NCBI GenBank assembly: GCA_018069465.1
Contig: JAGPUW010000006.1
Span: 1-64,000, forward strand
DNA from: Gammaproteobacteria bacterium
Lineage (GTDB): Bacteria; Pseudomonadota; Gammaproteobacteria; Pseudomonadales; Porticoccaceae
Length of the DNA stretch: 64,000 bases
Direction: 5' to 3'
Of the stretch, positions 10,797 to 18,705 are shown in pieces; positions within the stretch are counted from its first letter, which is position 1, and each line of letters starts with the position of its first letter. The position numbers and the translations under genes are program-made. The notes below the pieces were generated by a model. It searched no databases, was not told the DNA's origin, and saw only the letters and a list, made by a program, of their open reading frames with translations.

Positions 10797-12302
10797 ATGG
10801 ATAGGAAAACTATGGCCGTGTTTGATTCAAGCCCGTTGCAAAGCAGTTATCGCCAAATAGGTGAGCAGTTTTACACGGACCAGTTACCGACGCCGGTGGG
10901 TAAGCCGGCGCTAATTCGTGTCAATCCGGCGCTGGCTGAGCAGCTCAATTTATCGCTCAGTGAACTGCAAAGCCCCGAGGCCTTGCAGGTTTTTGCCGGT
11001 AATAGCGTGCCGCCAACCAGCACGCCAATCGCCACCGTATATGCCGCTCACCAGTTTGGTGGCTGGAACCCCCAGCTCGGCGACGGACGCGCGATCTTGC
11101 TCGGCGAAGTGATTGGCAAAGACCAGCAGCGCTACGATATTCAATTAAAAGGCGCTGGCCAAACACCGTACTCGCGTCGTGGCGATGGCCGCTCGGCATT
11201 GGGGCCGGTGCTGCGCGAATACATCGTTAGTGAAGCCATGGCCGCACTGGGCGTACCCACAACTCGCGCCCTGGCTGCCGTCACCACGGGTGATCGCGTG
11301 GTGCGTGAATCATACTTGCCCGGTGCCATCCTCACCCGTGTGGCCAGTAGCCATATTCGCATTGGCACCTTTCAATTCTTTTCTGCTCAAGGGGATGTTG
11401 ACTCGGTTAAAACCCTGGCCGATTACGTGATCGAGCGGCACTACAAAGCAGCCGTTGAGGCCTCGGATGAGGATTCCTATAGCGCTTTGTTAACCTGCGT
11501 GATGCAAGCCCAGGCCCGCTTAATCGCCCGCTGGATGGCCATAGGTTTTATTCACGGGGTGATGAATACCGACAATATGCTGGTCTGTGGCGAAACCGTC
11601 GATTACGGCCCTTGTGCTTTTATGGATGCCTATAATCCCAATAAAGTATTTAGCTCCATCGACAGTCACGGGCGCTATGCCTACGCCAAGCAGGCGGAGA
11701 TCGGGCACTGGAATATCAGCTGGCTGGCGCAAGCCCTGCTGCCGCTAATGGATGCATCGCAAGAAGTAGCGATAAAAAAAGCGGAGAAAATACTCAATGC
11801 TTTCAGTCCTGTTTTCACCCAGACCTACCAGCAACTGCTGGCGGAAAAGATGGGCTTTGCCAGTGCTGGTGCAGAGGTCAATCAGCTCTCCGTCGATCTA
11901 CTGCAATTAATGGCGGCCGAGGCGACAGATTTTACCCTGACCTTTCGGGGGCTAAGCGATTATCTCGCCCCCGAGGCTGAGCGGTATTTTTTGAATAAGC
12001 TGGTCAGCTTGCCCGAGACTTTCCAGGCCTGGGTAGCGCGCTGGCAGGCCGAACTGGCAAGGCAAAATGTTGCCCCGCAGACCGCCCATCAATTAATGCT
12101 GAAAACCAACCCCAGCTATATCCCCCGCAACCACATCATCGCCGCCGCTATCGAGCAGGCGACGGGGGAGGAGGATTTTAGTTTGTTTCATCAAATGGTA
12201 GATGTGCTTGCTAAACCCTTTGAATACAGTGAGGAGAATGCCAGTTTTGCTATTGCGCCCAAGCCGGAAGAAGAGGTGCTGCATACTTTTTGTGGGACAT
12301 AG
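10797..12302 (+). CDS. selO: SelO/YdiU-family protein adenylyltransferase; start may be the ATG at 10812
   Basis: AHQFGGWNPQLGDGRAILLGE, QLKGAGQTPYSRRGDGRSALGPVLREYIVSEAM, GFIHGVMNTDNM. Confidence 0.93.
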   Translation: MDRKTMAVFDSSPLQSSYRQIGEQFYTDQLPTPVGKPALIRVNPALAEQLNLSLSELQSPEALQVFAGNSVPPTSTPIATVYAAHQFGGWNPQLGDGRAILLGEVIGKDQQRYDIQLKGAGQTPYSRRGDGRSALGPVLREYIVSEAMAALGVPTTRALAAVTTGDRVVRESYLPGAILTRVASSHIRIGTFQFFSAQGDVDSVKTLADYVIERHYKAAVEASDEDSYSALLTCVMQAQARLIARWMAIGFIHGVMNTDNMLVCGETVDYGPCAFMDAYNPNKVFSSIDSHGRYAYAKQAEIGHWNISWLAQALLPLMDASQEVAIKKAEKILNAFSPVFTQTYQQLLAEKMGFASAGAEVNQLSVDLLQLMAAEATDFTLTFRGLSDYLAPEAERYFLNKLVSLPETFQAWVARWQAELARQNVAPQTAHQLMLKTNPSYIPRNHIIAAAIEQATGEEDFSLFHQMVDVLAKPFEYSEENASFAIAPKPEEEVLHTFCGT

Positions 12303-12557
12303 GTTTGTGGTAGATGGATAAAATAGGGCTTTATAGTGGGTGTCCGATAACACTACAAGAATGTGATTTGGAAAGACCTCGTTTTTTCTTTGAACTTGAA
12401 TCAATTCTGCCTAATACGTGGAAAGCTTGTCTTCTGTCAGAGAAAGTGTAGCTATCTCTTTGATTATGGGTTGTTATTAAAAATAAATACGGAGCTGATA
12501 TTAAGCACTATACGGAATCTGTCTAGTTACTTAATATCGCGTTCTGTATAGTTAACT

Positions 12558-13142
12558 GTTATGTTTAGGAGGATGTAAATGGAGTTCTGTTCTGCTACGA
12601 GAGATCACTTTGATCAAATAATAGATATGGTTTCTTCACCTGAAGAAATGTACTTATTTTATCCAAAAGGAAAATACCCTTTAGATCATTTGCAGCTAGA
12701 AGAATTATTTGAAAATCGATCGAACTTTACTGTGGCGATAGAAAATAACGAAGTAGTTGGTTTCGCAAATCTTTACAATATCCATTCTAAAGACTCAGCA
12801 TTCATCGGAAATGTGTTAGTTTCTAAGTCATTTCGTCGGAAAGGGCTTGGAAAGAAAATTACAGAATTTATGTGCGAATTATGTGTTAATGAACATCATG
12901 CGATACCACATCTCTCAGTTTTTAATCACAACACGTTGGCGCTGTTAATGTACTCTAAGCTTGGTTTTAAGCCTTATTCCATCGAGCAAAGAGTCAATGT
13001 AGACTCTGAGAAAGTAGCATTGATTCACATGAAATTAGAGAAAAAAACATAACAAGGGCAAGCAACGGACTCGTCAAACTGTCACTTTTTGTGCAAAAGG
13101 CCGCACAAAAACCGCCAGTTCAACTCACCGCTGTTGCCGGCG
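12558..13142 (+). mobile_element. Integron-type gene cassette 1 (GNAT gene plus attC-like site)
   Basis: Starts at core GTTATGT (12558-12564); its attC R'' is ACATAAC (13047-13053), the exact reverse complement; ends at the next GTTAGCT core. Confidence 0.72.
12579..13052 (+). CDS. GNAT family N-acetyltransferase (cassette gene)
   Basis: FIGNVLVSKSFRRKGLGKKITEFMCELC acetyl-CoA binding motif. Confidence 0.85.
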   Translation: MEFCSATRDHFDQIIDMVSSPEEMYLFYPKGKYPLDHLQLEELFENRSNFTVAIENNEVVGFANLYNIHSKDSAFIGNVLVSKSFRRKGLGKKITEFMCELCVNEHHAIPHLSVFNHNTLALLMYSKLGFKPYSIEQRVNVDSEKVALIHMKLEKKT

Positions 13143-13148
13143 TTAGCT
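13047..13148 (+). other. attC-like recombination site of cassette 1 (102 bp)
   Basis: R'' ACATAAC ... R' GTTAGCT; GGCAA...TTGCC, AACTG...CAGTT and TTTTTGTGC-aaaaggcc-GCACAAAAA pairings form a long imperfect palindrome. Confidence 0.72.
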
Positions 13149-13729
13149 GTATGAACAAACGGAGATAGAATGCTTAACGGAATTAATGTTTCGATTCGTA
13201 CAATCAAAGAAGAAGACCTTAGTACGTTGTTTGGCTTGTTGAATGACATCGATAGTCAAGGAGGGTTTCTTCCCGTCACTTTGACCTCGGAAGTAAAATT
13301 GAGATCCCAGTACATGGATAATGGGTTTGTCTCAGATGCGTCCGAGCAATACCTGATTACAAATAAATCAGATGAAATTGTCGGCTCAATCTGGGCGTTC
13401 AAGTCCGTCCCATATTTCGACGCCATTGAGGTCGGCTACCAAATCTTTGATCACGAAAATCGCGGCCAAGGATATGCCACTGAAGCTCTTACTGTATTTT
13501 ATCAATACATTTTTGAGGTAAAGCAGGTTAATCGTATAGAGCTGAGGATTGCGTCAGAGAATGAGTCATCAGAGAAAGTTGCTATTAAAGCAGGGTTCAA
13601 GATTGAAGGTACGAATAGAGAGGCTGCTTATTCGAAAGGCAAGCTTCGCGACATGAACATATATGCGATGCTACGGCGGGAATGGTCAGCTAACAATGCA
13701 TTGCAGCGGACAAGCCGCTGAATGCGGCG
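13142..13729 (+). mobile_element. Integron-type gene cassette 2 (GNAT gene plus short attC-like site)
   Basis: Starts at core GTTAGCT (13142-13148); its own R'' is AGCTAAC (13688-13694), the exact reverse complement; R' GTTAAAT at 13729-13735. Confidence 0.68.
13170..13721 (+). CDS. GNAT family N-acetyltransferase (RimJ/RimL-like; cassette gene)
   Basis: EVGYQIFDHENRGQGYATEALTVFYQYIF...NRIELRIASENESSEKVAIKAGFKIEGTNREA; C-terminal ANNALQRTSR is encoded inside the attC-like site. Confidence 0.85.
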   Translation: MLNGINVSIRTIKEEDLSTLFGLLNDIDSQGGFLPVTLTSEVKLRSQYMDNGFVSDASEQYLITNKSDEIVGSIWAFKSVPYFDAIEVGYQIFDHENRGQGYATEALTVFYQYIFEVKQVNRIELRIASENESSEKVAIKAGFKIEGTNREAAYSKGKLRDMNIYAMLRREWSANNALQRTSR

Positions 13730-13735
13730 TTAAAT
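13688..13735 (+). other. attC-like recombination site of cassette 2 (48 bp, unusually short)
   Basis: AGCTAAC-aat-GCATTgCAGCGG-acaag-CCGCTGAATGC-ggc-GTTAAAT; the arms pair with one extrahelical G, as is typical for attC. Confidence 0.6.
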
Positions 13736-13790: not shown

Positions 13791-13837
13791 AGGTATAGAT
13801 TAAAGCTGTGCATTTGTACAGTTAATGATCTATACCT
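13791..13837. repeat. Nested inverted repeat just upstream of the IS91-like transposase fragment
   Basis: AGGTATAGAT ... ATCTATACCT outer arms (10 bp, perfect) with inner CTGTgCAttTGtACAG. Confidence 0.65.
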
Positions 13838-13842
13838 GTTTT

Positions 13843-14190
13843 ATGGCCAGCTTCAGTATTCAAAACATTCTTCAGCAGCATCTCAGCGGTCTACTTGAGC
13901 GCAATAAATTTACCCTCTATCAATATCGCGCCCTTAAACAACTCTCGGTTTGTCGCACTGCCAAACTTGGCGGTCACGCCCAATACTGCGCCGAAGGCCA
14001 TCTCAATGGCATCTGGTACAACTCCTGTAAGCATCGCGCCTGCCCTCAGTGCAGAGGCCTCGCCGGAGAAGAGTGGCGGCAGAATACTGAATCGATGTTA
14101 CTCAATTGCCCGCATCATCACGTTATATTTACGCTGCCCGAAGAGCTGAACATACTCTGGCGCTACAATCGTGCGCTGATGACGAGCGAA
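13843..14190 (+). pseudogene. IS91-like transposase, N-terminal zinc-binding region only (truncated)
   Basis: RNKFTLYQYRALKQLSVCRTAKLGGHAQYCAEGHLNGIWYNSCKHRACPQCRG...NCPHHHVIFTLPEELNILWRYNRAL, then repeat-derived residues and a stop at 14307. Confidence 0.8.
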
Positions 14191-14278
14191 AAAAACGGGG
14201 TCAGGTCTTTCGAGATAGAAAAAAACGGGGTCAGGTCTTTCGAGATCAAGAAAAAAACGGGGTCAGGTCTTTCGAGAT
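14191..14278. repeat. Three direct copies of AAAAACGGGGTCAGGTCTTTCGAGAT
   Basis: Identical 26-bp units at 14191-14216, 14221-14246 and 14253-14278. Confidence 0.95.
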
Positions 14279-14477
14279 CATATTGTGAGTTTTATCAGGT
14301 GTACTAATGGAACAGCACTCAGGATAATGTCGGCTAAGTACTCACCTAATTGCCAGTAATGAATGGCCTTGGTGTGCGATCTATACTACCCTTCGCCCCG
14401 CTCTAATTGGAGCCCCATTCGAAGCGTTGGCATTACCAGAAAATAAATATAAATCATGATAATGGATTATCGTAAAT

Positions 14478-17067: not shown

Positions 17068-18705
17068 GTGAATAATAATAATCAGCAAACATTTGACGCG
17101 ATCATTATAGGTGCGGGCATTGCCGGTATGTACCAGCTGCTCAAATTGCGAGAACTTGGGTTTTCTGTGAAAGTTTATGAGACGGCTGGTGATGTGGGGG
17201 GTACCTGGTACTGGAATCGCTACCCCGGTTGTCGTTTTGATTCAGAAAGTTATTCCTACGGTTATTCCTTTTCCAAAGAGCTGCTTCAAGAGTGGGACTG
17301 GAGCGAGCACTTTTCGCCGCAACCCGAAACCCTGCGCTACCTTAACCGGGTGGCCGATAAATTTGATTTGCGCAAAGATATTCAATTCGACAGTCGCGTC
17401 AAAAAGGCCACGTATAAGGAAGCAGACACACAGTGGGAAGTCGAGCTGGAGGATGGCAGCAGCGCCCGGGCACAGTTTTTAATTTCGGCCACCGGTCCAT
17501 TGTCAGCTCCGCAAATGCCCAATATAGAAGGCACGGATAGTTATCAGGGTGAGTCCTTCCACACCGCTCGCTGGCCCCGCGACCCCGATGGTTTTGGGGG
17601 CAGTAAAGCCATCGACTTCAAAGGCAAGCGTGTCGGGGTGATTGGCACCGGGGCCAGTGGCGTGCAGGTGATTCAGGAAATTGCTAAAACGGCCGATGAG
17701 TTATTTGTCTTTCAGCGTCACCCCAACTGGTGCGCGCCCTTAAAAAATGGCCCCGTTAGCGCCGAAGAACAAGCGCAAATAAAAGCCAGCTATCCCGAAA
17801 TTTTAAAGCGCTGTAGCGAAACCTTTGGCAGTTTCCTGCACAGCCCCGACCCGCGTAAGGCCGTTGAAACATCGGCGGAAGACAGGGAGGCCCTGTTTGA
17901 AAAACTTTATGGCGAACGGGGTTTTGGTATCGCGCTGGCAAACTTCAGAGACATTATGGTCGACCCCAAAGCCAACGTCATGGTGAGTGAGTATATTGAG
18001 AAAAAAATTCGCCAGCGGGTTAATGATCCCCTTATCGCCGATAAATTAGTGCCGACGAATCACGGCTTTGGCACGCGGCGCGTACCCCTTGAAACCCATT
18101 ACTACGAAGTTTATAACCAGGCTAACGTGACGCTGGTTGATCTTAGTGAAACACCTATAGAGCGAGTCACCCCAAAAGGTGTGCAAACCACAGGGCAGGA
18201 GTACGAACTGGATATGCTGATTTACGCCACCGGTTTTGACCCGGTCACCGGCGCTTTAAATCGCATTGATATTAGTGGTCTCGGCGGGCAAAAGCTGAAA
18301 CGCAAATGGGCTGATGGGCCACAAACTTACCTCGGTATGCAGGCTCAGGGTTTCCCTAACTTACTGACTTTAGTCGGTCCCCATAACGGCGCAACCCTGT
18401 GCAATATCCCGCGCTGCATTGAGCAAAATGTCGAGTGGGTGAGTGACCTGCTGGACTATATGCGCAATAAGGAGCTGAGCTACATCGAGCCCACTCAACA
18501 AGCAGAAAATGACTGGACAGAGCATGTCGCTGAAACCGCAGCGCGCACTCTTTTCCCCACGGCCGACTCCTGGTTTATGGGCGTTAACACCAATAACCCT
18601 GAGCGCAAACCGAGCTTTATGCTCTACGCTGGCGGCGTGCCCCGTTACAAAGCAAAGTGTGATGAGGTGGCAGAAAAAGCTTATGAAGGCTTTGTGCTGA
18701 AATAG
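17068..18705 (+). CDS. Flavin-containing / Baeyer-Villiger-type monooxygenase
   Basis: GAGIAGMYQLLKLRELG, DVGGTWYWNRYPGCRFDSESYSY, YQGESFHTARWP (BVMO FxGxxxHxxxW with Y for F), GVIGTGASGVQ. Confidence 0.88.
   Translation: MNNNNQQTFDAIIIGAGIAGMYQLLKLRELGFSVKVYETAGDVGGTWYWNRYPGCRFDSESYSYGYSFSKELLQEWDWSEHFSPQPETLRYLNRVADKFDLRKDIQFDSRVKKATYKEADTQWEVELEDGSSARAQFLISATGPLSAPQMPNIEGTDSYQGESFHTARWPRDPDGFGGSKAIDFKGKRVGVIGTGASGVQVIQEIAKTADELFVFQRHPNWCAPLKNGPVSAEEQAQIKASYPEILKRCSETFGSFLHSPDPRKAVETSAEDREALFEKLYGERGFGIALANFRDIMVDPKANVMVSEYIEKKIRQRVNDPLIADKLVPTNHGFGTRRVPLETHYYEVYNQANVTLVDLSETPIERVTPKGVQTTGQEYELDMLIYATGFDPVTGALNRIDISGLGGQKLKRKWADGPQTYLGMQAQGFPNLLTLVGPHNGATLCNIPRCIEQNVEWVSDLLDYMRNKELSYIEPTQQAENDWTEHVAETAARTLFPTADSWFMGVNTNNPERKPSFMLYAGGVPRYKAKCDEVAEKAYEGFVLK

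Follow-up and report, generated by a model that had tools for sequence, protein, structure and literature searches.

Two gene cassettes downstream of selO

The window analyzed here, a stretch of 64,000 nucleotides (64 kb) from a Porticoccaceae contig, contains the host gene selO (10797..12302, + strand; Pfam SelO, E = 5.7e-119), followed in the same direction by an array of two integron-type gene cassettes. Cassette 1 (12559..13142, + strand) has the core GTTATGT at 12558 and the R'' box ACATAAC at 13047, whereas cassette 2 (13143..13729, + strand) has the core GTTAGCT at 13142 and the R'' box AGCTAAC at 13688. In both, R'' and the 5' core of the same cassette are exact reverse complements over 7 bases, as expected of units that once existed as free circles. 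The preliminary description of this DNA had already reported this self-complementarity and two consecutive GNAT-encoding cassettes, with coordinates that proved exact; its designation of the cores as GTTRRRY-like applies with the reservation that GTTATGT departs from the consensus at one base.

Pfam profiles matched both reading frames. The first acetyltransferase (157 aa; 12579..13052, + strand; Acetyltransf_1, 1.2e-15) has its own Shine-Dalgarno sequence, 20 nt from the predicted cut, and ends with a stop codon inside R''; its nearest solved structure is PA4794 (E = 2e-19). The second (183 aa; 13170..13721, + strand; Acetyltransf_3, 9.8e-19) has its closest solved relatives in the spermidine/RimL-like group, and its reading frame enters the second attC site, giving the C-terminus NNALQRTSR. 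Its homologues elsewhere are 66-72% identical; those of Oceanospirillaceae and Cycloclasticus were considered as cassettes and rejected, being devoid of self-complementary cores. No evident promoter was found for the two GNAT genes.

Both attC sites, annotated without strand, follow the canonical order R''-spacer-L''-loop-L'-spacer-R' with spacers of five bases per side. In attC1 (13047-13148, 102 bp) the boxes are ACATAAC, CAAGCAAC, GCTGTTG and GTTAGCT (at 13142), and in attC2 (13688-13735, 48 bp) they are AGCTAAC, ATTGCAGC, GCTGAAT and GTTAAAT (at 13729); an extrahelical G is present in L'' of each, in agreement with the L-box-type pairing and extrahelical base described previously. A loose attC scan did not discriminate and was replaced by a strict R''/L''/L'/R' scan of the 64 kb on both strands, in which the two sites took ranks 1 and 2 on the + strand with scores of 24 and 21. 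The higher score exceeded all 40 maxima of a Markov null (19-22); the lower one falls within the null range on structure, and the R'' of that site is pinned independently by the core at 12558. The bottom-strand fold, proposed earlier as a check, was favored by attC1 (DNA folding, -23.6 versus -16.1 kcal/mol; z = -3.9), and attC2 folds well on either strand. Copies of attC2 (41-46 bp, 94-98% identity) were detected on a Methylomonas plasmid and on secondary replicons of Pseudoalteromonas, in each case where an unrelated gene ends, and none in phages or E. coli; near-identical copies beside unrelated genes identify this sequence as an attC. A search of the window against Rfam returned no match. 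Each unit thus combines the R''/core complementarity with the boxes, extrahelical base and bottom-strand fold by which gene cassettes are recognized.

The array has a GC content of 0.35-0.45 versus 0.52-0.58 in selO, so that the AT-richness noted previously was borne out. The gene order moeB-moeA-CoA transferase-selO is kept in four congeners, and in the relative G001 the homologue of the window's gene at 17068 starts 113 bp after selO. Since this homologue directly follows selO in G001 and no relative was found to carry GNAT genes or an attI at selO, the array was acquired downstream of selO, as first suggested, and the opposite reading, in which the GNAT genes and their flanks form an ancestral conserved block, does not hold. 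To the right of the last attC lies a truncated IS91-type transposase with a zinc-binding domain (13825..14190, + strand; Pfam Zn_Tnp_IS91, 1.1e-23).

An attI site in front of the first cassette

The preliminary description recognized the cassettes and overlooked the sequence to their left. A search of the genome with this region revealed two further copies of 60-170 bp of the DNA upstream of cassette 1, stopping near the cassette boundary. In four relatives (G003:C7, G006:C31, G082:C151 and G142:C79), the same segment of about 55 bp separates a divergent IntI gene from its first cassette, and the repeat at 12504..12561 (+ strand) is therefore an attI, here called type 1 (model R1, 6.4e-19, with the window itself included in the model), whose homologues adjoin integrases of 468-476 aa. 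Its cut is predicted at G12558^T12559, and it comprises the inverted arms ACTATACGGAA/TTCTGTATAGT and the direct repeats TCTGTCTAG and TCTGTATAG. When 15 type-1 copies were aligned on the predicted cut, the information content was 1.55 bits per base at positions -10..-1, 1.74 at TTA and 0.32 over the next six bases. This drop after GTTA is what an attI should exhibit, because the sequence downstream is that of whichever cassette entered last. Conservation up to the G^TT cut and a variable first cassette beyond it are thus found at the window site, and the adjacent intI, absent from the window, is present beside the homologues in G003, G006, G082 and G142.

Readings of the repeat as a degenerate attC or as the end of a transposon had been considered as well, and both were rejected on account of the homologues adjoining IntI genes. 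No type-1 copies were found in plasmids, and no terminator was called in the attI region. The 116 bp preceding the attI (12388..12503, + strand) form, together with it, a 177-bp match of 76% to another solo site of this genome (G000:C46:97926-98099). This stretch is common only to these two solo sites, which contain related short reading frames (RFFFELESILPNTW... and LRFELDKLCPIRE...). Searching with three IntIs (tblastn) detected no intI remnant between selO and attI, including the shared 116 bp.

Integrases of this genome and its relatives

The partner of the type-1 attI is a long IntI of 468-476 aa (G003:C7, G006:C31, G082:C151, G142:C79), in which the TIGR02249 domain starts at about residue 155 (433-437 bits) and is preceded by an extra N-terminal region of about 150 aa. 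In this extension, a weak match to a second SAM-like (core-binding) domain, PF02899, was observed. Among the genomes searched, the long IntI occurs in five only, namely the four above (G003, G006, G082, G142) and, as a 44% relative, G078. It was not found in the present assembly, in which the locus that carries it in relatives ends at an insertion sequence where the contig breaks off; the cognate integrase of the window may have been lost or left unassembled.

No intI lies beside the array or elsewhere in the window, which lacks the intI in cis that defines a complete integron. The earlier statement that an integrase is missing therefore holds for the window but not for the genome, whose complete integron is located on another contig (G000:C18:31374-33520; L018) and encodes a full IntI of 327 aa (TIGR02249, 442 bits). 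This C18 IntI is 50% identical to the long IntI and belongs to a different attI type: the C18 integron has its own attI with ACGTCGGGTGACG palindromes, and its first cassette combines the core GTTACAA with the R'' TTGTAAC, the cassettes running towards the contig end. Another integron integrase gene is represented by a solitary 3' remnant at G000:C25:345-449, which covers profile positions 281-315.

Solo attI sites of two unrelated types

Type-1 attI sites without an adjacent integrase were detected in 13 copies at ten loci, in the genus itself and in two genera more distant from it. In the present genome (G000) they follow selO (the window), ubiD (C46) and an amidohydrolase gene (C29). Sites after a DUF442 gene occur in G001, G004 (broken), G005 and G006, and further ones lie after an MBL-fold hydrolase gene in G001, after echA and a CoA transferase gene in G003, after a gene for a 687-aa protein in G064 and after aldH and a WD40-like gene in G082. 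At five of these sites, an intact core is followed by a sufficient length of unmasked sequence; in four of the five (the window, G003:C9, G003:C4 and G082:C47) R'' was exactly complementary to its own core, and these are therefore attI sites that took in cassettes. Cores of solo type-1 sites were intact in 5/5 cases where the long IntI is present versus 2/8 where it is absent (one-sided Fisher p = 0.016); with loci shared by descent, this tendency of core integrity to track the cognate integrase is suggestive only.

As a control, relatives were searched with the C18-type attI (type 2), for which a single, integrase-linked copy was expected. This type was also dispersed, with three further copies in G000 (two on C3, one on C21) and others in G001, G004, G005 and G006, nearly all of which end at GTTA. 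The 13 aligned type-2 copies hardly vary up to and including GTTA (1.83 bits), beyond which their sequence is random (0.2), and R'' matches its own core in 10 of the 13 copies (7/10 among the tested solo copies). Type-2 integrases were detected only at C18 and at G004:C10, and G004:C19 retains a frameshifted intI stub of 72 codons. No type-2 IntI was found in G006 or G001, although the type-2 solo sites there are intact, which weakens the link between the presence of an integrase and the integrity of its sites. The two attI types are unrelated, and both are dispersed as solo sites.

Taking the two types together, 20 independent solo loci were counted. At 19 of them the array lies behind a host gene and reads in its direction, and for these 19 the probability under random orientation is about 2e-6; the remaining locus, G006:C29, is ambiguous. 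The host genes upstream include parC, fba, gor, ubiD, selO and a CoA transferase gene, with gor representing the same locus in G001 and G004; the names of the genes upstream of type-2 sites (parC, fba, gor, CoA transferase) were assigned by sequence reading, without a family search.

Origin and possible activity of the solo sites

We consider it probable that the segment 12504-13735 is an integrase-less integron platform belonging to a family of solo attI sites, which presumably arose through the loss of intI and was served in trans, at least formerly. In the mechanism proposed here, an IntI would recombine the folded bottom strand of attC at the G^TT of attI, and the two cassettes would have been integrated one after another, a reaction that we infer from the sites and junction anatomy present in the DNA. 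The solo sites most likely derive from complete platforms that lost intI and kept attI and the array, a loss that could be borne because one integrase elsewhere in the genome would be able to serve them in trans. The stub at G004:C19, the only intI remnant detected at any solo site, represents the sole intermediate towards such a loss. As far as sequences can indicate, solo sites may be served in trans, to judge from the integrity of their cores and from the intact arrays that they carry in genomes where the integrase is encoded at another locus (G003, G006, G082 and, for type 2, G000 and G004); the GNAT genes would be transcribed by read-through from the upstream host gene. Tentatively, and with somewhat reserved confidence, these elements could be extended to a distributed integron, in which one integrase would attend a set of solo attI docking sites located behind host operons throughout the chromosome, with cassettes captured, expressed and exchanged in trans at several loci.

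The most substantial alternative is an ordinary decayed integron, whose own adjacent integrase captured the two cassettes after selO and was then lost, leaving the attI as a dead relic with no activity in trans. A degraded-integron origin of CALINs has been proposed (PMC9024848), and both the attI with the 72-codon intI stub at G004:C19 and the several mutated solo cores in genomes devoid of the long IntI fit this account. However, neither the surroundings of the attI at selO nor the 116 bp shared with C46 yielded a trace of intI, the attI core and both cassettes at selO are intact, and this type of site recurs at ten loci, with intact cores where the cognate integrase survives elsewhere in the genome; we thus regard simple decay as rather unlikely.

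The origin first proposed, a CALIN formed by cassette integration at a secondary chromosomal (attG-type) site, draws on the known insertion of cassettes at non-attI genomic positions (PMC12901181; PMC12444791) and on the absence of a nearby integrase. It appears highly improbable given that the sequence to the left of the cut matches the integrase-linked attI of four genomes as well as the solo sites, with the match ending at the cut. That the repeat at 12504-12561 is some other repetitive element, such as a terminator or transposon end, to which the cassettes became adjacent by chance, would agree with its shortness, dispersal, inverted arms and position at gene 3' ends, and is nevertheless extremely improbable: the repeat directly adjoins IntI genes in four genomes, its conservation ends at GTTA, first cassettes match their own cores, an unrelated attI type exhibits the same pattern and the region yielded no terminator call. 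The integrase-less platform with an attI at its head remains our preferred reading of the locus.

Relation to known integron arrangements

CALINs are usually interpreted as products of integron decay or of random insertion. With two attC sites and no intI nearby, the window conforms to the CALIN definition of IntegronFinder, and the earlier classification stands formally (at least two attC, no nearby intI), but the insertion at a chance site that it implied does not, as the array starts at a recurring attI. With sedentary chromosomal integrons the locus shares an attI, self-complementary R''/core pairs, hairpin attC sites with extrahelical bases and a position behind a housekeeping gene (ilvD in Xanthomonas; PMC12444791), and it differs from them in that its attI lacks an adjacent intI and several attI copies occur per genome. 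The Delta-attI-type cassettes of class 1/2 integrons (PMC12901181) likewise contain attI sequence that is no longer next to intI and that in their case still recombines; those, however, are pieces of attI that replace the attC of a cassette within one array, whereas the window has a full attI heading its own array at a separate locus. Insertions at attG resemble the window in placing cassettes away from an integron, yet attG diverges from the classical att sites, and the site described here is a homologue of attI.

According to the authors of IntegronFinder 2.0, the attI sites of integrons other than class 1 are little characterized and go undetected, and CALINs are about as numerous as complete integrons (PMC9024848). 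Arrays that are headed by an attI and devoid of an integrase would hence be counted as plain CALINs and pass unnoticed. In Xanthomonas, CALINs away from intI were found at conserved loci and attributed to ancestral integron activity, as opposed to dispersed attG insertion (PMC12444791), and displaced attI pieces inside arrays are known from class 1/2 integrons (PMC12901181). Two cassettes without an integrase would be ordinary; what distinguishes this locus is the attI that precedes them, together with the dispersal of such sites in two unrelated types. No report of a full attI dispersed without an integrase was found in the open literature searched, a scope that does not establish novelty. 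Should solo attI sites receive their cassettes in trans, the integron as a unit would be a network rather than one locus, the recurrent positions of CALINs within a genus would be simply explained, and several host operons would provide expression to promoterless cassettes. The distributed integron, if true, would provide a general origin for CALINs at conserved positions.

Genes adjacent to other solo sites

At several solo sites (C29, two at G001:C19, and G005:C72), no cassette or only degenerate ones were present. The solo attI at G000:C46 has a mutated core (TTTA) and is directly followed, on its downstream side, by a Septu-like pair (L020:3518-5895) consisting of PtuA (PADLOC, E = 1e-211) and an HNH partner; neither a complementary R'' nor a matching attC that would make this pair a cassette was found. 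Three tandem copies of a sequence of about 29 bp, GAAAAAAACGGGGTCAGGTCTTTCGAGAT, occupy 14190-14280 of the window, and a similar GGGGTCACGTCTTT stretch was observed behind the Septu-like pair. Additionally, an OLD-like ATPase and a DUF262-like protein are encoded after other solo attI sites (G006:C3 and G001:C3).
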